IMG/VR virus record: IMGVR_UViG_3300020165_000065
Location: 1 to 36,423 of that record
Direction: 5' to 3' (one strand)
Origin: a virus
DNA: 36,423 nt
Shown: positions 2,085-36,375 of the stretch, piece by piece
Position numbering within the stretch: position 1 is the stretch's first letter
Layout: each line of letters opens with the position of its first letter
Program-made: the position numbers and the translations under genes
Notes under the pieces: generated by a model
What the model saw: only the letters and a program-made list of their open reading frames with translations
What the model was told of the DNA's origin: nothing
The model's database searches: none

Positions 2085-4229
2085 TTATTTTTGTTTTGCT
2101 GTTGGGCCTTTACCTCCGCCTTTTGCTTTATATGATGCTACTGCACCTGCAATTGCTTTAGCTGCCTTACTAGATTTACCTTGTTTTTTAATTTTATTAA
2201 CTAAAGTATCGTATGATTCATCAATAGAAAAACCACTCATATATTTTTTACCTTTTTGAGTTTCAATAGCTTTAGTTAATTTTCTAGTATAATAACTTAC
2301 CATTTCATCATCACCATCAAAATCAGGTGCACCCGCTGCTGCCATAGCTGCTAAAACACCTCTTACAGGTGAAGATACACCCCCTTCATACCCACTTTGC
2401 TTATTAGCAAATGCAGCTATTTTTTCTCCCTGTGCCATTAGACCTTTTAAGTCTTCATCTATTTTACCATCTTGGTCTTCATCTTTAGCATCGATTTTTT
2501 TATCCCAAAATCCTTTAGGTAAACCTTCTTTTAACTCTTTAGCTAATTTTTCTGCTATTGAACTATGTTTAGAAGTAGATTCATTTACGGCTGCATCTGG
2601 ATAATATTCTGCAGGTCCTATTTTTAATTTACTTTTATCAGTAACACCTGTGTCAAACCAAGATTTAATAGCATCATCAACATTTCTACCACCTAAGAAA
2701 AAGCTTAGTAAACTTTCTAAACCTTTAGGTCCTTCTGCTACCCAAGCATCAAATTCTTCTTCATTGTCCCACTCAAATTTATCATCAGATGTAAATTGAT
2801 ATACTGGTTTGTTTTGTAAATTAGACATTGCAAATGCCATTCCACTACCTTCATGATTACCATAATGAGATTCTTTAAGTGATACAACATCTTTAGATGG
2901 TGTTTCCTTATATTTAAAATAAATAGTATATCTCTTTTTATTATTATTATAATCTGTTAAATATACTGTTTTTTTAGCAAATGCTTTTCCGTTGTAGGCG
3001 CGGCGCCATTTATTCATATTCATTGCTTCTTCTATTGGTTTTTTACTTTCCTCAAATGCTCCTGATGCATATTCTCTTCCTACTGATGCATCACCTAATT
3101 CGTTTGGTGTGTATAATGACGCTTGAAATCCTGTATCACCATCTGTGCCTAGTTGGCCTATTTCTTCATCTACTACGTCTGTAGCTACATCAACTACGGC
3201 ATCAATTTTAGGTTCTTTAAGTTCAAATTCAAGATAATGTTTAGCTCCTGATATATTATTTTTAGCTGTTGTGATTTTTGATTGCCACCAAGCAGGGAAA
3301 TCAATTTCTCCCATACCTTCTAAATCATCCATCATTTTATATAATTCCATAGCATAACTACCAATATGGTAAAGCTCTGCTTTAAGCATTCCAGGTTCAT
3401 TATCTTCATGACCTAAATCAATATCTTCTTTTACTTTATATAAAAGTTTATGACCATCAAGTTCTAATTTACCACTTTGATGAAGTTTATCCATATCATC
3501 TTGAGATAAATCTAATGTTGTTCCTGGTGCTTCATTTATTTCTTCAGCTTCACTATCGGCTATATCTTTTAAATAACTAAGTACTCTTCCAAATTTTTGA
3601 TTTTTAGAATAATCTTTTTGTTCTTTATCTTGTATAGAATTAAAAATCCCAAGCATTGCTTTTGCAAATCCTTGGGGGTCCTTAATTTCATTAGCAAATT
3701 TCTGGATAATTGATGTAGGTAATTCTACTTCATTCATTTTACCTTTATTTTTTAAATCATCATAGGCTTTACTAATGTTACCACCATATAGTCTACCAAC
3801 AATTTGCTTACCTAATGCTTCTAATTCACTATTATTTAATGAGTGTGGTCTACCAAAACCTTCTAAATAAAATTGACCTATATCTTCATAATCATAAGTA
3901 AAATCTTTTCCCAACGGAATTGATGAGTCTAATTCTTTTATGTTTTTTTCAATAGCAGCCCCCCTAGTTTTTTCATAATCTGATAGCTTTCCATCCTTAT
4001 TTAAATCTGCTTTTGATGGGTTTTTTAATGCATCTTTAATCAACTCTGTTAAATTAGGATCTCTCATTTCTTTTGTTTGTTTTTTAGCCATATTAGTTGC
4101 ACGTCCATACATAACTGCCTCAGCATCTTTACCATATTTTTTAACAAGGTCACGTTTGTTACCTTTCATATTCATGATAATATCTTCCCTCTTTTTGAGT
4201 TCTGCTTTTGACAGTTTACGCTCGTTCAT
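2085..4229 (-). CDS. Large modular phage protein with EF-hand loop and GPTAKQK C-terminal tail
   Basis: This 714-residue, mainly hydrophilic protein looks modular. Residues 75-86 (DLNKDGKLSDYE) form a canonical EF-hand calcium loop with D, N, D, G, L and E at positions 1, 3, 5, 6, 8 and 12. A second DxDxDG loop at 583-594 is less complete because position 12 is Leu. Segments matching the T4 gp21 cleavage rule occur at I231-N-E-A234 and I399-E-E-A402, both in apparent linkers. The last 40 residues (KKQGKSSKAAKAIAGAVASY, then GPTAKQK) form a lysine-rich module that I recall from marine phage virion-cluster proteins. No enzyme motif was recognised. Its neighbours suggest a virion or internal head protein. 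The function is unproven. Confidence 0.78.
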   Translation of the reverse strand: MNERKLSKAELKKREDIIMNMKGNKRDLVKKYGKDAEAVMYGRATNMAKKQTKEMRDPNLTELIKDALKNPSKADLNKDGKLSDYEKTRGAAIEKNIKELDSSIPLGKDFTYDYEDIGQFYLEGFGRPHSLNNSELEALGKQIVGRLYGGNISKAYDDLKNKGKMNEVELPTSIIQKFANEIKDPQGFAKAMLGIFNSIQDKEQKDYSKNQKFGRVLSYLKDIADSEAEEINEAPGTTLDLSQDDMDKLHQSGKLELDGHKLLYKVKEDIDLGHEDNEPGMLKAELYHIGSYAMELYKMMDDLEGMGEIDFPAWWQSKITTAKNNISGAKHYLEFELKEPKIDAVVDVATDVVDEEIGQLGTDGDTGFQASLYTPNELGDASVGREYASGAFEESKKPIEEAMNMNKWRRAYNGKAFAKKTVYLTDYNNNKKRYTIYFKYKETPSKDVVSLKESHYGNHEGSGMAFAMSNLQNKPVYQFTSDDKFEWDNEEEFDAWVAEGPKGLESLLSFFLGGRNVDDAIKSWFDTGVTDKSKLKIGPAEYYPDAAVNESTSKHSSIAEKLAKELKEGLPKGFWDKKIDAKDEDQDGKIDEDLKGLMAQGEKIAAFANKQSGYEGGVSSPVRGVLAAMAAAGAPDFDGDDEMVSYYTRKLTKAIETQKGKKYMSGFSIDESYDTLVNKIKKQGKSSKAAKAIAGAVASYKAKGGGKGPTAKQK

Positions 4230-4231
4230 TC

Positions 4232-4387
4232 CTATTTATGGTTTCTTTTGAAATCAGCAGATAAGTTTTTAATTTTATTGGCAGCAGATCTACATCTACC
4301 CTTTGCGGCAGCACTTGTTTTTTCTAATTCTGCTTCAATTAATAATACTTGTTCTTTAATTCCTTCTAATAATTCTTTTGTGTCCAT
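4232..4387 (-). CDS. Small histone-H1-like (Hc1-type) DNA-binding protein
   Basis: A 51-codon frame opens with ATG at 4385-4387 and ends with TAG at 4232-4234. The product starts MDTKELLEGIKEQVLLIEAE. Its second half, AAAKGRCRSAANKIKNLS then ADFKRNHK, is Lys/Arg-rich and helical. An acidic first helix followed by a basic AxGxRxRxxxxxIxxLxxxFR helix is the pattern of the short Bacteroidetes histone-H1-like family (Hc1). It fills the gap between two clear genes, and an A-rich stretch precedes its ATG. A role in condensing phage DNA or packing with it would fit. The family assignment rests on pattern only and needs a profile search. Confidence 0.6.
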   Translation of the reverse strand: MDTKELLEGIKEQVLLIEAELEKTSAAAKGRCRSAANKIKNLSADFKRNHK

Positions 4388-4422
4388 TTTTATAAATTTT
4401 ATTTGTTAATAACTGTTTTTAT

Positions 4423-5085
4423 TTATTTTTCTAATCCTGCTAATTTAGCAAATCTTTGAATTGACTCATCTAATGCAAATCCAATCTCAGCATCTTCAGC
4501 TGGGTTGTCTTTTGTTACATTAACTATACTATCAGAATCAACTTCATCACCACCCGAACCTACGAATCTTTCAGGATCCATTCCTTGTTCTTCATTAGTA
4601 GCTACAACGTGTGCTCTAGTATAATAAGTAATTGTATTTCCTATTTGGTCTAATAGTTTTTCATCTCCTAAACCTTTAGCTTCTTCTTGTGCCTTAGTTA
4701 AAAGACCTAATATAGCTGCTACATCAGAATCTTCACCTGCTAATTCTGAATCAACTTCAATTTCTGATTTGGATGATTCATCATCAATGTTAACATCATC
4801 TTCAATATCTACATCAATATCTTCATTATCTTCAACATCAATATCTTCATTATCTTCAACATCAACATCCTCAGCTTCATTAACATCTTTTTTAAAGTCT
4901 TTCTTTAATTTAGCTAATTTTTCTTCGTTATCTTTAATGTCTTTTTCAAGATTTTTAATGTGATCTCTATCATCACGAATGGCACCTTCCATTCGTTTTT
5001 GTTCTTCGCTGTTTCCTTTTTTAGAGTCATCAGCTTCAGCTAAAAACTGACTTTTGATGATTTCTTTTAATTCCGATTTTTTCAT
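4423..5085 (-). CDS. Acidic conserved phage protein with tandem EDNEDIDV repeat
   Basis: This 220-residue protein begins MKKSELKEIIKSQFLAEADD, an amphipathic leader followed by L15-A-E-A18, which fits the T4 gp21 cleavage rule. A charged coiled-coil-like helix spans about residues 25-67. An acidic stretch (72-105) with two copies of EDNEDIDV follows. The C-terminal domain contains ILGLLTKAQEEAK and DQIGNTITYYTR, segments I recall from marine T4-like phage proteins of unknown function. The leader and acidity recall internal head or prohead-core proteins, but this is inference. A candidate late promoter lies 30 bases upstream of the start. Confidence 0.8.
   Translation of the reverse strand: MKKSELKEIIKSQFLAEADDSKKGNSEEQKRMEGAIRDDRDHIKNLEKDIKDNEEKLAKLKKDFKKDVNEAEDVDVEDNEDIDVEDNEDIDVDIEDDVNIDDESSKSEIEVDSELAGEDSDVAAILGLLTKAQEEAKGLGDEKLLDQIGNTITYYTRAHVVATNEEQGMDPERFVGSGGDEVDSDSIVNVTKDNPAEDAEIGFALDESIQRFAKLAGLEK
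4811..4858. repeat. Two tandem copies of a 24-bp repeat inside the acidic protein gene
   Basis: Two identical 24-bp units (4811-4834 and 4835-4858) sit head to tail and in frame, each coding for eight acidic residues (EDNEDIDV on the minus strand). A partial third unit follows. Copy number probably changes by slippage or recombination. Confidence 0.9.
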
Positions 5086-5115
5086 TATATTTGTATTTTT
5101 CTGTTGATTAATTTT

Positions 5116-5126
5116 ATTATAAATAT
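5116..5126 (-). promoter_or_regulatory. Candidate late promoter ATATTTATAAT
   Basis: On the minus strand this reads ATATTTATAAT followed by AAAATTAATC. It lies between the end of the gene at 5134 and the start at 5085, 29-30 bases upstream of the ATG. It is one of six near-identical copies found in gaps before genes. It contains TATAAT and the reverse complement of the T4 late octamer TATAAATA. Confidence 0.6.
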
Positions 5127-5133
5127 GTAAAAA

Positions 5134-5424
5134 TTATTTCTCATACGTTCCTTTTCGATATTTTGCGGACTTTGTATTTTTTACAAATTGTTTTCCTTTT
5201 TTACTACCCCTAACTTTCTTAGCAACTGTAGATTTTCTTTCTGATTTTGACAAAGATTGAGCTTTTTTCTTAGGTAAACATCTGGTAGTGGCCTTTCCTT
5301 TTTTCATAGTACCACAATCACCTGCAATATTACCTGATGTGTTAATTCTTACCCAATTTTCTTTTTTAAACCAATCACGTAAGGATTCTTTAACTATTTC
5401 ATATACTCTTTCTTCTGTTATCAT
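5134..5424 (-). CDS. Small basic conserved phage protein (DUF5872-like)
   Basis: The 96-residue, strongly basic product has WFKKENWVRI near residue 20, then a Cys-containing core GDCGTMKKGKATTRCLPKKK (two cysteines about 12 residues apart), then ERKSTVAKKVRGSKKGKQFV. This pattern (W-V-x-I, a CG pair, RCLP, a Lys/Arg-rich tail) matches a small protein common in marine phages that I know as DUF5872-like. Its charge suggests DNA or RNA contact, but no function is established. Its ATG overlaps the upstream gene's TGA by 4 bases (ATGA). Identification is from memory of the family pattern. Confidence 0.75.
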   Translation of the reverse strand: MITEERVYEIVKESLRDWFKKENWVRINTSGNIAGDCGTMKKGKATTRCLPKKKAQSLSKSERKSTVAKKVRGSKKGKQFVKNTKSAKYRKGTYEK

Positions 5425-5958: not shown

Positions 5959-7506
5959 CTACCCTTTCATTTGACCTTTACATACTTTAACAGCACGACC
6001 ATTCAAGTAAGCAGATGATTTCTCACCAGCTGCCATTCTTTTCTTTCTATATGCTTTACCTTTAGCACAAAGTTCTTCAGTTAGATTTTTTCCTAATTCA
6101 GTAGTTTCTTTAATATCTTTAATTGCTTCTTTTAAACTACCTAACTGTTCAATTGCTCTAGTAAGATCTCGTTTTGCTTCATCTTCACTAACACCTCTAT
6201 ACTTAGCTATACTTTTAATAGCACGTAAGGCAATTCTTTTTTCTTCTGTTGAAGCACTTTCATCTATTGATTCTTTAGTATTTATTCTATCTTCAGAATC
6301 TACGGCATAGCTACCATCGTCTTGTTCTAATTCTCTACTATCTACGATTAAAGTATTCCAATCTATCTCCCCTGTGTCGTCATCCCTATCTACTATAAAT
6401 AGCCATTTATCATCATTTGATATTGCCATTAAATCATCATCACCTTTAGATTCTTGTTTAAATTTTAAATTTGTAAGTGTTTTATTACCATGATGGTTAG
6501 TTCCTCTCCATCTAATAGTAACATTATCAAGATCACTTATGTTATCAATTATTACTTCTTTATCTTCTGTTTTTCCAGGTGCTGTGTTTATAGCAGTTCT
6601 AGTTTTATATGAATTTTTTCCTATTTTTTTACCTTCAGCTATTGCTTGGTCATAAGTCATTTCTTTTCTACCTGATAGTTTAGCAATTGCATTATCTATA
6701 CGGTTTAGTTTACTACCATATTCATCAGCAATTGGTCCACCTTCTGGTTCAGCTTCTTGCTCCATATCACGCATTAATTGATCTCTTTCTTTCTTAAGAA
6801 ATCTAAGTTTAGTATCATTATTATTACCACCACGAGCTTTTTTAACAGCATCACCATATTCTTTACCGAAATCTGATTTAGGTTGGGATAGTATTTTATC
6901 AGTTCTATCTTTAGCAGCTCTTATTTTTACGAGTACTGGGTCATTTATATCCATTTCGTTAACTGATTTGTATAGTGAAAGTAGTCTTTTAAGTTCTTTC
7001 TGTACTAACATTTCTGTTTCAGAAGTTAAAGGTTCACCATTAGCTTCACCACTATCTAATATTTCTTCTGCATCTTTGATTTGTTTTTTGATGCCTGCTT
7101 TACTCATCCCTTCGTTGATTGGAAAATCTGCTACATTAAATTGAAATTTTATTTTTGGGTACCATGCTCTATCTCCATCATATTCCATTTCATACCAATT
7201 AGATTCTGATTCTATTTCAAATCCTTTAGATTCTACCCACTTTAATGCTTTATTCCAATCATTAGGATCAAGTTCTTCTCTAACACTAAATGTTATAGAA
7301 CCAAAGCCTTTGCCTTTTAATGGGTCTGAATCTGGTCTGTCACCACTATACATTTGTAATGAAATGTTAGGGTTATAATCATTAAATTGAGAATCTAATT
7401 CTTTTCCTAATTCTATTTCTCGAGATCTATATTCCCCATATTCGTCTATTTGACCTTCATTAAGATAGCGGTTTCTATTCCACTTAGTGATATTAAAATT
7501 ATCCAT
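5959..7506 (-). CDS. Modular phage protein with LCAKGKAY...VCKGQMKG C-terminal module
   Basis: The product has 515 residues. The N-terminal leader FNITKWNRNRYLNEG contains L15-N-E-G18, and a second site I130-N-E-G133 sits at an apparent domain border; both fit the T4 gp21 protease rule. Residues about 60-128 look like a small alpha/beta domain, 140-270 are charged helices, and 310-395 look beta-rich. The last 40 residues (LCAKGKAYRKKRMAAGEKSS and AVKVCKGQMKG) form a Cys/Lys-rich module I recall from other marine phage proteins. No catalytic motif was found. A late-promoter-like motif lies 9 bases upstream of the ATG. Probably virion-associated, by context. Confidence 0.78.
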   Translation of the reverse strand: MDNFNITKWNRNRYLNEGQIDEYGEYRSREIELGKELDSQFNDYNPNISLQMYSGDRPDSDPLKGKGFGSITFSVREELDPNDWNKALKWVESKGFEIESESNWYEMEYDGDRAWYPKIKFQFNVADFPINEGMSKAGIKKQIKDAEEILDSGEANGEPLTSETEMLVQKELKRLLSLYKSVNEMDINDPVLVKIRAAKDRTDKILSQPKSDFGKEYGDAVKKARGGNNNDTKLRFLKKERDQLMRDMEQEAEPEGGPIADEYGSKLNRIDNAIAKLSGRKEMTYDQAIAEGKKIGKNSYKTRTAINTAPGKTEDKEVIIDNISDLDNVTIRWRGTNHHGNKTLTNLKFKQESKGDDDLMAISNDDKWLFIVDRDDDTGEIDWNTLIVDSRELEQDDGSYAVDSEDRINTKESIDESASTEEKRIALRAIKSIAKYRGVSEDEAKRDLTRAIEQLGSLKEAIKDIKETTELGKNLTEELCAKGKAYRKKRMAAGEKSSAYLNGRAVKVCKGQMKG

Positions 7507-7515
7507 TGATTTTTA

Positions 7516-7526
7516 GTTATAAATAT
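7516..7526 (-). promoter_or_regulatory. Candidate late promoter ATATTTATAAC
   Basis: The minus strand reads ATATTTATAAC then TAAAAATCA before the ATG at 7506, leaving only 9 bases to the start codon. It differs from the consensus ATATTTATAAT at the last base. Such a short distance would give a very short or absent 5' leader. Confidence 0.55.
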
Positions 7527-7537
7527 ATAAAAATATG

Positions 7538-8113
7538 TTACTTTTTAAGATTATTTAAATGTTCGATAGTTTTATTTAATCCTTCTAATACTTTTGATTT
7601 ATTAGGAGCCCCTACCCAACTTTCAACATCGCCCTGTTCTGTAATAAAACCTTTATTAGATAATACTAACTCAGCTTCTATATAAGCTTTAAATTCATTA
7701 ACAAAATTATCTATTTCTGAGTTGATGATTTTAGACTCATAAGCTTCATATAAACCTGCTACTCTTAAATGATGTTCAAACTCAACAACACAATTAAAAC
7801 ATTTTTTATGTATATTGTAGTAGGGTTTATCTAAATCTGTATGCATTTTAGACCCACAATTAGGGCAAAAAATAGGCATTATGTGTGCTTTTTTTGCTTT
7901 ATCTAATTTGGTAATATTTTGTTTAATACCTTCTTTAATAGTCCACATCCTACCATCTACTTCCCAAACATCACCTTCTTTATAATCTTTATCATGTTTA
8001 GCATAACCCACACTCTGACCTACTTTTTCACCGTGTTTTCCTTGGATAAGGTTACGCATTCTATTTACATCTCTTTCAGTAAATTGTTTATTTAGACCTT
8101 GTACTTTACTCAT
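7538..8113 (-). CDS. Zinc-finger phage protein, function unknown
   Basis: The product has 191 residues. Residues 83-108 carry two CxxC knuckles, C83-P-N-C86 and C105-F-N-C108, 18 residues apart, a treble-clef or zinc-ribbon-like arrangement. The N-terminal part (FTERDVNRMRNLIQGKHGEK and WEVDGRMWTIKEGIKQNITK) resembles a conserved protein of T4-like phages from freshwater and marine settings, but I cannot name a function. A helical acidic tail follows. Its ATG overlaps the upstream gene by 4 bases. Zinc binding is well supported by spacing. Whether it binds DNA or protein is open. Confidence 0.78.
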   Translation of the reverse strand: MSKVQGLNKQFTERDVNRMRNLIQGKHGEKVGQSVGYAKHDKDYKEGDVWEVDGRMWTIKEGIKQNITKLDKAKKAHIMPIFCPNCGSKMHTDLDKPYYNIHKKCFNCVVEFEHHLRVAGLYEAYESKIINSEIDNFVNEFKAYIEAELVLSNKGFITEQGDVESWVGAPNKSKVLEGLNKTIEHLNNLKK

Positions 8114-8322
8114 AAAACTAATTTATTTAATTCTTTAATAATAACTTGTACACCTTCTTTTGATAAATTACCCCCACTATATAATTGTTTAAGATAATTT
8201 GATAATTGTTCTACATCTACCTGTTTTGGTGGGTCTCCAATAAAGGGTTTTGGAGTATTATTACTTCTTAATCTTGGTGATCCCCCCTTATATCCCCCAG
8301 CTAGTGTATTTAATTTACTCAT
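8110..8322 (-). CDS. Small phage protein of unknown function
   Basis: The 70-residue product has a Gly/Ser/Arg-rich first half (LAGGYKGGSPRLRSNNTPKP) and a helical second half (VDVEQLSNYLKQLYSGG, EGVQVIIKELNKLVL). No motif is recognised. The frame is supported by ATGA overlaps of 4 bases at both ends with the 668-residue and zinc-finger genes, the same junction used throughout the operon. This coupling argues for a real gene despite the small size. Confidence 0.7.
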   Translation of the reverse strand: MSKLNTLAGGYKGGSPRLRSNNTPKPFIGDPPKQVDVEQLSNYLKQLYSGGNLSKEGVQVIIKELNKLVL

Positions 8323-10325
8323 AATCCTAATGCTTTAAGTTGGTTAATAGTGTCAGCTGCTGATGTGTGTAATATGCCTATTCCACCTGCTTCTTTCCAT
8401 TGTTCTATATTTGATTCTCTATCATCAATTAATATATGATTAGGTTCAGCATAATTTTTCTTATTATAAGCTTGTGCTAAAGTTAATTTAATGCCCGGCA
8501 TATTATTTCTAACCCATAATCTTTTACCTAATCTTGATGTTTCAGATCTAGATGGAGAAGATAATAACTCTACATCGTAATCTTTAATATAATCCCAATA
8601 CTGTTTAGCATCTTCCATCCAAGGCATTCCTACCCAAAATCCAACTTTACCTTCACCATCAATTAATTTCCAAAAACCATCTTTACCAAATTTCTTTTCA
8701 TACTCTCTAGGTGGTATTCCTTTTGAGTATTTTTCGAATGATTTGTCAAAATCTGTTAACACACCATCCATGTCTGAGTATATTTTATATTCCATAGGGG
8801 GTGAAGATACGACCTCTTCTTCGGGTATCAAAACTCCTTCGGCTATTTCTCTAGCAAATTGGTTTAAACCAAAGGGATCTTTGCCTAATTTGTCATCAAA
8901 ACCATGTTTATGTTTATAAGGTTTTACTTCATTTATAGGCTTATTATTGTTCCCACATTTATGACATATAAATAAATCATCTCCACCATCTGCTATTTTC
9001 CAACTCCAACCACACTTATCACATTCAATTTTGTTACCTACAACAACCTCATTTAAACTATCAGTCCAATTTCTAAATGTCATTGTGCCTTTTAAATTAG
9101 CTTCTGCTTCAATATCATTTAACTCATCATCTTCTTGAGTGTTTGTTGTAGTAATATTACCTAATCTATCTTCTAAATTTTGAATGTGGTGAATCATTTC
9201 ATGAGTGTAACTACGCGCTATATCTTTAGGATGTCTACCTTCAGTATATAATACTATAGTTTGTGTGTTTGGGTCATAATACGCTGTCTTACCAAGAAAT
9301 TCGCGTGCATTTTCACTATCACCATTAACAAATTCTAAACTAGGTAAAGGTTCTATGTTCATGCCTTTATCTAACATATGTTGAGTTAGTTGAGCTAATT
9401 TTTCAATAAGATTAATATCTTTAGTATATGAAGCGTTTTCATTAAGGGCAATAACAGGAGTTGAGGTTTTGAAATCTTTTTTACGCATTACTGTTTTGGC
9501 ATACATTTCAATATCATCATCAGTTACATTTATAGCAAATGGTATATTAATATTATTATTAAAATCCTTAACAACAGCATTAAAATCATCGTCTATTTTG
9601 GATAAAGGTTTACCGTGTTTTCTATGTAAACGTTTAAACATCCCTACTAATTCTGGTACTGATATAGGTTTAATATTTCTTTCATCATTTACCCTATCTA
9701 AGAAATGTTTTGTAAACTCAATATCAATTCCTAATTTATTAAATAAACTATCAGCATATTTTTCAATTGAATCTAATTGGGGTTTGGTAATTTCTTCTTT
9801 AATTACTGGTCTTAAGATATTAAATACTTCTTCTTTTTCACTATCATCTAACTCATCAGGTAGAAATGGTGATAATTCATCAGTTGACATTTTTGCTGCT
9901 TTTCTAGCATTAGTTCCACTCATACCTTTATCTTGTGTAAATTGTACTTTTACTTTCATATTAGGATAAGCGGATTCTATGTTTTTAGTTCTATTTTCAA
10001 TATCTTCTAAATCATCATCTCTTCCTTCTCTTCCTCCTATAATAAAATAAACTTCATCCTCAGGGTTATTTTTTCCTAAACGAACAATATCACCAATTGG
10101 TGATTTTGCAGGTTCAATTCTGACTTTCATAGGGAGATATTTTTTAAATATATCCCAAATTAAAATAGCTTCAGCTTGACTTACCCCATTTCTTTCCTTA
10201 CTCCCAACATAAATAATAAATTCATCTATTTCAGGAAGAGATTCTAAAGCTTTTTTAACTACTTCTAAATGTCCTTTAGTGGGTGGTTTAAAACCACCAC
10301 CATATGCTGCTATTACCTTACTCAT
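8319..10325 (-). CDS. Multidomain protein: nucleotidyltransferase, HExxH peptidase-like, zinc ribbon, HAD phosphatase
   Basis: Four modules can be read in 668 residues. Residues 1-150 form a cytidylyltransferase-like domain (GGGFKPPTKGHL with a TxGH-type motif at 16-19; SGTNAR at 136-141, like the family's ISSTxxR). Residues 180-295 are an unassigned domain with FTKHFLDRVNDERN and KTVMRKKDF. Residues 300-425 contain H375-E-M-I-H379, a zincin signature, with a downstream EAEAN that may hold the third ligand. C435xxC438 and C454xxC457 make a zinc ribbon. Residues 511-668 are a HAD domain (D518-M-D520-G-V, SSPSR at 589-593, IDDR at 633-636). I494-A-E-G497 sits between ribbon and HAD and could be a cleavage site. 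It overlaps genes on both sides by 4 bases. Substrates are unknown. Confidence 0.82.
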   Translation of the reverse strand: MSKVIAAYGGGFKPPTKGHLEVVKKALESLPEIDEFIIYVGSKERNGVSQAEAILIWDIFKKYLPMKVRIEPAKSPIGDIVRLGKNNPEDEVYFIIGGREGRDDDLEDIENRTKNIESAYPNMKVKVQFTQDKGMSGTNARKAAKMSTDELSPFLPDELDDSEKEEVFNILRPVIKEEITKPQLDSIEKYADSLFNKLGIDIEFTKHFLDRVNDERNIKPISVPELVGMFKRLHRKHGKPLSKIDDDFNAVVKDFNNNINIPFAINVTDDDIEMYAKTVMRKKDFKTSTPVIALNENASYTKDINLIEKLAQLTQHMLDKGMNIEPLPSLEFVNGDSENAREFLGKTAYYDPNTQTIVLYTEGRHPKDIARSYTHEMIHHIQNLEDRLGNITTTNTQEDDELNDIEAEANLKGTMTFRNWTDSLNEVVVGNKIECDKCGWSWKIADGGDDLFICHKCGNNNKPINEVKPYKHKHGFDDKLGKDPFGLNQFAREIAEGVLIPEEEVVSSPPMEYKIYSDMDGVLTDFDKSFEKYSKGIPPREYEKKFGKDGFWKLIDGEGKVGFWVGMPWMEDAKQYWDYIKDYDVELLSSPSRSETSRLGKRLWVRNNMPGIKLTLAQAYNKKNYAEPNHILIDDRESNIEQWKEAGGIGILHTSAADTINQLKALGL

Positions 10326-33422: not shown

Positions 33423-34196
33423 TTATAGTTTATCAAAAATGTTTTGTAAACCTTCACTTTTAATAGAGCCTAAGGCTTTATTTTTTGTAGAGGTTTTCTT
33501 ATTATTACCCAATGTAAAATTATTTTTACTGGTATCCAAGTTATTTTTAAATTTAGGCAACCATTCAATTTCAAATTCAATTCTAGCTGCCATCATATCT
33601 GCTTGATGTAAAATAAATGGTAATGAAGTGCGTGGTTTTTGTTCTGGCATATAACCCTTTAAATATTTTTCATTAGCTGAATCATATAACCCATCATGTG
33701 TTTGGATTGCTACCATTTCATTAAATGTATATTTAATGTTATTATCTTGAAGTAAAAATAATCCTCTATCTGGGACAGCTGAAAATGCTAATTCTTTATT
33801 AAACATATAATCTTCACCTAGTTTATCTTTTCTCCATTTATCAGTTTGTGGGATATAAGCTTCATGGTTATCATCCCCCATTTTACCTAAATCATGATTA
33901 ATAGCTGAGAATACTAATTCTTCAGTAGTAAAAGTAGTCATATCACAACCAAAACCTTCCCAAACAGCAGACATTGATAAAGCAGCTTTAACTACTCTAT
34001 TAACATGATCTACATAACCTCCAGGAAAGGCAGAGTGATATTCTTTTTTATGAGCAGCAGGCATAAACATAATACGTTCCGCATACTTTTCATAAAATTT
34101 AGTTAGTTGTTCTTTACGAGGAGAGGAAATATAAGTATCAATATTACTCAAAAATTCCACCCAATTCATTTGAATTTGGTCTGCTGTTAATTTCAT
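33423..34196 (-). CDS. HD-domain metal-dependent phosphohydrolase
   Basis: The 257-residue product carries HD-superfamily metal-binding residues in order: H64 in GGYVDHVNRV, H101-D102 in AINHDLGK, H167-D168 in AIQTHDG and H197 with D200 in LHQADMMAARIEFE. Such enzymes hydrolyse phosphoester bonds in nucleotides or nucleic acids. The C-terminal tail is Lys/Asn-rich. HD-domain genes of this type are common in T4-like marine phages, where they are thought to act in nucleotide metabolism. The exact substrate cannot be read from the sequence. It is two bases upstream of the membrane protein gene. Confidence 0.84.
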   Translation of the reverse strand: MKLTADQIQMNWVEFLSNIDTYISSPRKEQLTKFYEKYAERIMFMPAAHKKEYHSAFPGGYVDHVNRVVKAALSMSAVWEGFGCDMTTFTTEELVFSAINHDLGKMGDDNHEAYIPQTDKWRKDKLGEDYMFNKELAFSAVPDRGLFLLQDNNIKYTFNEMVAIQTHDGLYDSANEKYLKGYMPEQKPRTSLPFILHQADMMAARIEFEIEWLPKFKNNLDTSKNNFTLGNNKKTSTKNKALGSIKSEGLQNIFDKL

Positions 34197-35247: not shown

Positions 35248-36231
35248 TTACCTTAATATTGTAAGATGCCCAGATTTTTGATATATTTCTGGGGAATTAT
35301 ATTTTCTAGCATAGAAAGTATAAACATATATTCCATCAACCACATAAGAGGATCCACCTTGCATACTACCATCCCAATAAGGATAACTGCTATAATCTTC
35401 TCCGTAACCTTCAAAAACTAAACTTCCCCATCTATTGTAAATCTTAAATTCTACATCAACCCAACACTCTAAATCAAAAATAATTTCCCAAACATCATTT
35501 ATACCATCATTATTTGGGGTTAGTACATTAGGTATAAAAACATTCCAAGGCCAGCACCCATCAATAATTAATTCACTACAGGGCAAACCAGTATTACAAT
35601 CTACTTCAATAATTTTTGTGATAGTATCTGTTAAAAAAACATACTCTAAAACTTCAACTTCCAAAGTATCTACTGTATATATGTAATTGTCTACAACTAC
35701 AGTATCTGCTATGTATTCCACAATTGTATCGGTTAAATACACGTATTCTTGCGTTATAACGGTGTCAATTTGCGTTTGTATAATAGTATCTGGTGGTAAA
35801 GTTATAGTAATTGTATCGTTTAAACAATCAACAGGACACTCAGGTATTTCAGGTAAGAATACAGTTGTATTATTATTTCCAGTAACGATTTCATTTAAAA
35901 TACCATCAACAGACATTACAAAAATACTACCAGGCCCTTCCATTTCAAAATAAGGAGTAGTAAAGAATTGCCCTTCCCCAGGAGGAATTGCATAAGCCCC
36001 AAATAAATCACTACTAAAACATTGATAATAATCTTCATTCCAAATTTCAATACAATAGTCTGTAATTTCTTCATCACCAAAATTCCATACAACATAATTT
36101 ATGTTATAAAAAGGTGTATCACCAATACACCCAGTTTCAATTTCTACATCACCTATTATGGCATCTGGAGATTGGGAAAATAACGATAAGGGCAGTAATA
36201 TAACCGCAAGGGAAAGAAGAAATTTATACAT
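35248..36231 (-). CDS. Secreted protein with T9SS type B (gliding-motility, CHU_C-like) sorting domain
   Basis: The product has 327 residues. Residues 1-20 (MYKFLLSLAVILLPLSLFSQ) form a clear Sec signal peptide. Residues about 25-128 look like a CARDB-type beta-sandwich (NINYVVWNFGDEEITDYCIE, GEGQFFTTPYF). Residues 138-210 are repeats of D-T-I/V with YVYLTDTIVEYI and YVFLTDTITKII, a spacer style common in Bacteroidetes surface proteins. Residues 231-327 are a type B C-terminal sorting domain: FIPNVLTPNNDGINDVWEI, FKIYNRWGSLVFEG, YWDG, VDGIYVYTF and GHLTILR. Such domains direct export through the type IX system and surface attachment. It is flanked by phage genes and tRNAs. The role in infection is unknown; surface modification or exclusion is a guess. 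Confidence 0.88.
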   Translation of the reverse strand: MYKFLLSLAVILLPLSLFSQSPDAIIGDVEIETGCIGDTPFYNINYVVWNFGDEEITDYCIEIWNEDYYQCFSSDLFGAYAIPPGEGQFFTTPYFEMEGPGSIFVMSVDGILNEIVTGNNNTTVFLPEIPECPVDCLNDTITITLPPDTIIQTQIDTVITQEYVYLTDTIVEYIADTVVVDNYIYTVDTLEVEVLEYVFLTDTITKIIEVDCNTGLPCSELIIDGCWPWNVFIPNVLTPNNDGINDVWEIIFDLECWVDVEFKIYNRWGSLVFEGYGEDYSSYPYWDGSMQGGSSYVVDGIYVYTFYARKYNSPEIYQKSGHLTILR

Positions 36232-36298
36232 TAAGTAATAGAGAGTGTAAAGTAGAATAACGTTTTATCACTAATACATATGTAAATCTTCTTTAAGG

Positions 36299-36375
36299 TA
36301 GGCAAGGAGAGACTTGAACTCTCATGTAACCAATTACTCTTTCTACAAGGTATAAGCTTGAGGAGATACATGCCT
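36299..36375 (-). tRNA. tRNA-like element with unusual or missing D-arm, possibly Ile(UAU)
   Basis: On the minus strand a 77-base element has an acceptor stem (AGGCATG with CTTGCCT, one U-U mismatch), a clean T-arm (GAGAG-TTCAAGT-CTCTC at 36307-36323) and a possible anticodon arm CAAG-CTTATAC-CTTG (36346-36360) with U33 and A37 and anticodon UAU. Only 8 bases lie where the D-arm should be. A 22-base segment between anticodon and T-arms contains GTAA-TTGG-TTAC, which resembles a D-loop (AATTGGTTA). No CCA is encoded. It starts 3 bases after tRNA-Arg ends. It may be degraded, divergent or rearranged. Confidence 0.45.

Follow-up and report, generated by a model that had tools for sequence, protein, structure and literature searches.

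The window analysed here, which comprises one whole IMG/VR virus record (IMGVR_UViG_3300020165_000065; 36,423 nucleotides), carries a gene whose product is, by domain criteria, a well supported substrate (cargo) of the type IX secretion system (T9SS) of type B. That a phage encodes such a cargo, as claimed in a first-pass annotation of the window, is borne out by a phage family with its own clade of C-terminal domains (CTDs), by purifying selection on the CTD and by the exchange of heads between related phages. We think it fairly probable that the product is a phage-owned display protein, which would be exported by the host T9SS, anchored by a host carrier and would remodel the surface of the infected cell.

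All 35 open reading frames (ORFs) taken as genes lie on the minus strand of the window, and the cargo ORF (Table 1) was the sole positive among 34 window ORFs in our own heuristic signal test (hydrophobic stretch, K/R and cleavage-like motif), by which the signal peptide described in the first-pass annotation is retained as a signal-like start. The complete C-terminal type B sorting domain described there was confirmed by two profiles above their cut-offs, CHU_C (PF13585) matching residues 232–324 (E 1.4e-16; 60.8 bits, curated cut-off 27) and TIGR04131 residues 233–325 (38.9 bits, cut-off 35), which places the domain at the extreme C terminus of the 327-residue protein. Positions common to bacterial CTDs are kept (PN, PNNDG, ND, NRWG, W286, G288, Y302 and G321, among others), and Cys212, Cys218 and Cys226 of the upstream collar are invariant in a 15-row family alignment. 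The type A models PF18962 and TIGR04183 gave no match in the cargo protein at E≤1, no PHROGs family was found at E≤0.1, and the head had no Pfam match. The suggested CARDB relationship fell away at the sequence level, PF07705 giving no Pfam match in the cargo protein even at E≤1, and is reduced to a weak fold-level likeness of the head.

Table 1. Positions of the features described, in the window (plain numbers) and in related loci (L handles)
Feature	Position	Strand	Basis
T9SS type B cargo gene, 327 aa, ATG start	35248..36231	(-)	ORF reading, PF13585 + TIGR04131
Signal-peptide-like N terminus, residues about 1-20	36172..36231	(-)	own heuristic
Head, residues about 21-133, one predicted Ig-like beta-sandwich domain	35833..36171	(-)	AlphaFold2; part differing in L014
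Stalk, residues about 137-225, DT-rich, DT[IVL..] repeats	35557..35823	(-)	family sequence reading
Cys collar, residues 211-226: DCxTGLPC then Cys226	35554..35601	(-)	family alignment
Type B CTD (CHU_C/TIGR04131), residues 231-327, with Cys256-Trp257	35251..35541	(-)	profile matches
3' part of upstream tRNA-Arg, cut by contig end	36379..36423	(-)	sub-threshold Rfam match; position carried over from L003
RNA leader	L011:9941-9980; L013:9397-9436; L021:25-65; L022:2008-2046; L023:970-1010; L228:3871-3912; L240:5293-5332; L243:5246-5285; L246:5152-5191; L250:5154-5193; L253:333-372; L012:1-36; L025:9358-9397		
Phage M43 gene beside type B gene	L019:11264-13297; L235:4116-5435; L258:3107-5104; L263:3032-5107		

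The phage origin of the gene was assessed from its occurrence in other contigs. The cargo protein is present at 100% identity in six other IMG/VR viral contigs (59,616; 163,571; 32,000; 97,766; 164,118 and 164,122 bp), and in the two contigs compared (L027 and L028) the next four downstream genes are also 100% identical to those of the window. Contamination, or a chimera joining host and phage DNA, could be imagined from the fact that this CTD type is common in Bacteroidota, but the six viral contigs with the same protein, the same neighbours in the two compared and the phage-type CTD clade described below make it practically negligible; the chimera, which the first-pass annotation had named as the finding that would speak against it, is ruled out by the identical protein and neighbours. 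The same annotation had placed the gene between phage tRNAs. ARAGORN called no complete tRNA in the window, but longer contigs of the same phage carry tRNA-Leu(taa) and tRNA-Arg(tct) directly upstream of the cargo gene, and the window ends inside one of these: its last 45 positions match the 3' part of the tRNA-Arg of the longer contigs and gave 16.4 bits with the Rfam tmRNA model, below the gathering threshold of 47. Between tRNA-Arg and cargo gene, tRNA-like acceptor and T arms were seen by eye at about 36300–36372 (about 9860–9932 in L003) in a stretch not called by ARAGORN, perhaps a decayed tRNA.

Conservation in related phages proved to be partial, in that a family exists and the gene is found beside the conserved neighbour gene (33423–34196) at 8 of 71 loci compared (out of 80), some of which have little upstream DNA; the cargo gene is accessory rather than core. 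In two loci, L031 and L077, another apparently secreted protein, of 211 or 241 aa, fills the slot between the tRNA end and a 62-aa gene; by eye its end looks like a type A tail, and the L031 protein had no Pfam or NCBIfam match. Since the baseplate wedge protein of the window is nearest to that of Flavobacterium phage vB_FspM_immuto (NC_055915; an isolate with a 160-kb genome), with 44.7% identity over 99%, a flavobacterial host is likely.

Six exact copies of ATATTTATAA were observed on the minus strand of the window, at 5117, 7517, 11135, 16072, 29024 and 32284, as compared to 1.67 expected, and as many occurred in 1 of 100 shuffles; all are on the coding strand, 6–31 nt ahead of ORF starts, suggesting that ATATTTATAA is likely a promoter of this phage. 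It is absent from the 60 bases upstream of the cargo gene. This bears on the possibility that the product is a virion protein, a decoration or fibre reusing a CHU_C-like beta-sandwich. Ig-like domains are frequent on phage virions, and the baseplate genes share their strand with the cargo gene; however, the product starts with a signal-like sequence, a feature that virion proteins can do without, keeps the conserved CHU_C positions and has no PHROGs match, and the six ATATTTATAA copies precede other ORFs, so that we regard a virion protein as quite improbable.

A scan of viral contigs with the family alignment returned 178 relatives, of which the best 80 were kept, and PF13585 scored above its cut-off in 14 of the first 15 family records; the remaining one is truncated by the record end. 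Reading of the frames revealed a common plan consisting of a signal-like start, at least one head module, a stalk built from DT[IVL] repeats, a collar resembling DCxTGLPC and the CTD. By our heuristic, a signal-like start is present in 42 of 49 distinct family proteins; among the seven failures (L020, L229, L237, L238, L265, L272 and L273), all except L273 open with Val-Lys and have no visible ATG, which probably reflects GTG starts. The collar was found in 76 of 79 family rows (duplicates kept) and is missing in L266–L268. For the stalk and CTD, counts were based on one row per distinct C-terminal 97 residues, leaving out L025 (cut), L273 and bacterial matches under 70 residues. On this basis, a run of at least five DT motifs precedes the CTD in 45 of the 49 phage rows versus none of the 103 bacterial rows; three of the four exceptions (L255, L262 and L264) are cut at their 5' end, and L266 is truly without a stalk. 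Throughout the family, DT motifs mostly lie an even number of residues apart (8, 10, 12, 14 and 16, with 9 as the main odd value), as would be expected if alternate residues of an extended strand faced one way, the stalk itself being poorly modelled: the full-length structure model had a mean pLDDT of 53.8, with the stalk under 50, and was not used for fold searches. One phage carries two type B genes in tandem (L024:9260-12042).

We analysed the relationship of phage and bacterial CTDs in a tree of 155 CTDs, built on only 102 columns. Together with the other CTD of the tandem phage L024 and a single bacterial row (L121), the 49 phage rows make up a clade (support 100/95), from which closer bacterial relatives may be missing, since the bacterial rows were drawn from the best 80 of at least 528 loci. 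Cys256 and Trp257 are present in all 49 phage rows, versus 5% and 1%, respectively, of the 103 bacterial rows. The CTDs of two huge phages fall outside the phage clade, among bacteria; these phages, of 642 and 635 kb, have genes for long repeat proteins with a type B domain at their C-terminal end (L118:1-3274 and L119:775-3274), and type A domains are present elsewhere in their genomes as well. The bacterial member of the clade is a protein of Flavobacteriales UBA1993 (L121:1-2031), whose CTD is nested among those of the phages and has the Cys-Trp pair, making gene flow between phage and host possible. In a search for bacterial sources of the CTD, UBA1993, which is itself the centre genome, was the sole match of profile A2 both among 395 genomes of the class (E≤1e-25, scoring 12 candidates for each genome listed) and among 42 genomes (E≤1e-30).

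Estimates of dN/dS were 0.03–0.12 for the CTD (five comparisons), 0.14–0.23 for the head (three comparisons) and 0.15–0.48 for the stalk (five comparisons). The CTD is the most constrained part of the protein and is under purifying selection.

The heads behave differently from the anchor, that is stalk, Cys collar and CTD. Between L003, from the phage of the window, and L014, DNA identity is 93.5% across 10.3 kb that begin in the stalk and continue downstream, and 100% across 92 bp that run from within tRNA-Arg to about position 36297 of the window; no DNA match was found between these two stretches, and the heads of L003 and L014 have no significant similarity (38% over 37 aa). Similarly, L246 and L013 are 97% identical along the 5.2 kb leading up to the start codon and 96.7% identical along 3.2 kb starting at the stalk. 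Their CTDs have an identity of 100% and their heads one of 50% (over 191 aa), and L013 has a second head module. Conversely, L014 and L246 have heads that are 91% identical on CTDs that are 64% identical. From these three comparisons, one head is therefore found on two anchors and one anchor with two heads, and we conclude from the sequences that heads are exchanged between related phages, the anchor being kept.

These observations bear on a further explanation, namely that the cargo acts as a decoy, whose CTD binds host PorP/SprF carriers or the translocon and jams the export of host adhesins, the head mattering little. A CTD more constrained than head and stalk would suit such a decoy, as would the lack of an own carrier in the phage records (see below); however, the heads are under purifying selection too, and the recurrence of one head on two anchors fits a head that works. 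We consider a decoy unlikely.

The head of the window was predicted by AlphaFold2 as a seven-strand beta-sandwich (pLDDT 75.7, pTM 0.71). None of the Foldseek matches reached E≤0.001; the CARDB domain 2kl6 appeared as a weak match at rank 43 (E 0.013, TM 0.52/0.56), and the top matches of a second structural comparison were parts of glycosidases, with Z 9.9 and below. An inference of the ligand from the fold was dropped, as many unrelated beta-sandwiches reached similar scores. A PDB sequence search with the head profile returned at best a xylanase at E 0.49. Head profile A3 works, since it matched 7 of 10 phage records, and in the sample of bacterial genomes searched it matched none of 42 and none of 395 (in the latter set, up to 11 candidates were scored for each genome listed).

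M43 metalloproteases occur in some relatives, either as the head or as the product of a neighbouring gene. The N-terminal parts of the L021 and L022 proteins match PF05572 (64.0 and 67.5 bits, respectively; cut-off 23), and L023 likewise has its match inside the type B gene. A separate M43 gene adjoins the type B gene in L019, L235, L236, L258 and L263; PF05572 matched 6 of 24 phage records, 5 of them above the cut-off, and the motif HExxHxxGxxH is present in L228, L235, L236, L258 and L263. Dockerin-like repeats passed the Pfam cut-off in L019 only and reached the NCBIfam cut-off in L228 (29.0 versus 29); those of L258 and L263 remained below cut-off. In L228, the M43-like gene (3934-5206) lies in two overlapping frames and is broken or mis-assembled. 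L019, a viral-classed contig, also carries a chaperonin (cpn60) and a TonB-dependent receptor near its type B gene (60-1472 and 6502-9213).

The first-pass annotation suggested a block to superinfection, altered gliding or adhesion, or help with release, each of which may be a role of the cargo. Superinfection exclusion or surface remodelling is the role that we propose, and the present results would fit adhesion or nutrition as well. The exported cargo could accordingly change adhesion, aggregation, gliding or the breakdown of proteins outside the cell, as an auxiliary gene for spread or nutrition. The predicted beta-sandwich is like that of many adhesins, and the M43 proteases beside or inside some family members would suit such an activity; however, no head is related to a characterised adhesin at the sequence level, the head profile reaching nothing in the PDB beyond the xylanase noted above. 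We regard an auxiliary gene of this kind as somewhat unlikely.

In a branch of the family, the type B gene is preceded by a putative RNA leader. This 40-nt element was found in 13 of 59 searched sources, once in each (Table 1). Twelve of the elements stop 21–24 nt short of the ATG of a type B gene, and that of L228 ends 21 nt before the M43 frame preceding such a gene; the leaders of L013 and L025 are almost the same. With a loose script, 41 distinct stretches were obtained, mostly chance occurrences as judged by eye, of which 11 with the leader sequence formed alignment A6. The leader hairpin is fully paired in all 11 sequences, with two-sided changes in four of five pairs, and its numbers of paired cells and two-sided cells and its covariation score were above those of all 500 shuffles and of every slide; the count of pairs with a two-sided change was reached by 93 of 500 shuffles and the pair-type count by 489 of 500. 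A 4-bp outer helix, placed where it fits best, pairs in all 11 sequences, and in the control five of five distinct types pair with their own strands versus 6 of 20 swapped combinations. A third helix, which would make a pseudoknot, is fully paired in 10 of 11. Taken together, the sequences point to a leader composed of a covarying hairpin and an outer helix, and likely folding into a pseudoknot.

A stricter pattern run over all viral contigs returned 19 stretches, all directly before family genes (11 with the CTD in view and 8 recognised by the gene start), the pattern itself having been drawn from such leaders. Rfam had no family at threshold for the leader, and one example searched at E≤10 gave weak matches only, the best being CRISPR-DR40 at E 2.7. 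The cargo gene of the window itself is without a leader element. Other elements were observed in the leader-bearing relatives. L013 has six copies of a 57-nt AT-rich element with a TTTTGCTTATATTAG core (at 1-57, 1291, 7293, 8398, 11490 and 17821), perhaps another promoter class. The loose hairpin script also found a stretch with CTGACGAGTC, common to L013 (13393), L011 (13023) and L246 (8820) and lying between tRNA genes, which may resemble a hammerhead core.

We next consider how the cargo may be exported. No match to the PorP/SprF carrier model PF11751 was found in 40 distinct phage records (15 + 24 + immuto), most of which are fragments, so that a carrier gene could lie outside them and its absence is firm only for records of near-genome length; as a control, the same model gave 13 matches in a bacterial genome. 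As no PorP/SprF was found in these records, export would need the carrier of the host. According to PMC9143113 and PMC12635249, type B substrates are handed to PorP/SprF carriers, stay bound to them and are anchored by them. PMC12618676 further describes orphan substrates without a linked carrier, three of which have one carrier in common in Flavobacterium johnsoniae, as well as cross-use between similar CTDs, along with a carrier recognition in F. johnsoniae that is specific and for which common motifs alone are insufficient. Since orphans and cross-use are published and no carrier of its own was found, the phage cargo would be an orphan type B substrate borrowing a host carrier.

From the domains, their conservation, the exchange of heads and the phage-type CTD clade, we infer export, anchoring on a host carrier and a purpose as follows. 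With its two signals, the cargo would be expected at the host surface. It would be made during infection with a Sec-type signal peptide and enter the periplasm; the host type IX system would read the type B CTD and export the protein across the outer membrane, where a host carrier of the PorP/SprF family would take it over and keep it anchored, with the stalk keeping the head at a distance from the cell. Within the phage lineage the anchor is retained and heads are exchanged, and some relatives have an M43 zinc metalloprotease as the head or as a secreted-looking neighbour. The purpose would most likely be to remodel the surface of the infected cell, by masking or cutting receptors and adhesins and by occupying carriers that host adhesins need, and further phages would adsorb less well to the remodelled surface. 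We favour protection against further adsorption because both the diversity of heads and the proteases found with them are consistent with an arms race over receptors.

In F. johnsoniae, gliding mutants resist phages, and phages alter the surface of infected cells usually via small membrane proteins or lipoproteins. Bacteroidota are abundant in the sea and in the gut. We put forward, as a tentative possibility, a broader model in which marine Bacteroidota phages own a dedicated display platform. Its phage-type type B anchor (stalk, collar and Cys-Trp CTD) would receive different heads, including metalloproteases, through recombination; in one branch, a pseudoknot-like RNA leader of the platform's own would act as a switch, and loading on host type IX carriers would give the infected cell a new coat. 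If true, type IX-addressed, modular and exchangeable proteins would offer viruses a general means of remodelling cell surfaces in Bacteroidota, and the choice of PorP/SprF carriers by phages, display-based superinfection exclusion in Bacteroidota and the reshaping of host surfaces by phage proteases would become testable; the heads and CTDs identified here can be tried directly in F. johnsoniae.

With regard to known systems, the phage cargo has a signal peptide-like start and a C-terminal type B domain in common with bacterial type B substrates, which according to PMC12618676 and PMC9143113 are used together with PorP/SprF carriers and include 12 proteins of F. johnsoniae, among them SprB, and PG1035 of Porphyromonas gingivalis. 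Like the three F. johnsoniae orphans (PMC12618676), it has no carrier gene found alongside. It differs from the bacterial type B rows in being phage-borne, in its separate Cys-Trp CTD clade, in its upstream Cys collar and in its DT-rich stalk; the F. johnsoniae and P. gingivalis substrates are likened here by description, the counts of phage versus bacteria resting on 103 other bacterial rows. The CTD profile also matched the C-terminal end (residues 5816–5882 of 5898, E 1.7e-5) of GhpA, the grappling hook protein of Aureispira (PDB 9flp), which is in contrast a very long bacterial protein matched in its CTD alone.

Among phages, a parallel is found in Cryophage, for which Bellas et al. 2020 (PMC7468147) describe a phage-encoded type A T9SS cargo that varies between phage variants, and already suggest hijacking of the host T9SS and superinfection exclusion. 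The two systems are alike in their phage-encoded, variable T9SS cargo and differ, by the descriptions in this source, in that the Cryophage type A domains are found on an endoglucanase, a GH39 and a PA14 protein, as opposed to type B domains with a stalk and beta-sandwich or M43 heads; the type A model PF18962 had no match in G002, G004 and G005, 164-kb contigs with the same cargo gene. T9SS sorting domains are likewise phage-encoded in a gut phage cluster, crAss-BACON cluster 2, where PMC6949934 places them on BACON-domain proteins near head genes. The excerpts of PMC7113391, PMC7077304, PMC9127263, PMC5879114, PMC13269007 and PMC10013915 hold nothing on phage T9SS cargo, and no report of a phage type B cargo was found among the top-listed titles, abstract beginnings and passages of the open-licence PMC literature searched. 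The novelty implied by the first-pass annotation is thus narrowed to the type B case, the phage T9SS cargo and the idea of hijacking having been published in 2020 (PMC7468147) and sorting domains in PMC6949934.

The nearest isolated phage by baseplate wedge protein, immuto, has a T9SS cargo of its own, gp015 (L289:4692-5423), with a cohesin and a type A domain (PF18962, 34.6 bits versus 27; TIGR04183, 44.8 versus 23), and the cargo protein of the window had no match in immuto at E≤1e-3. Two genes upstream of gp015, gp013 has a C-type lectin domain. Overall, T9SS cargo in phages was already known in its type A form, and the family described here presents type B cargo with a new anatomy.
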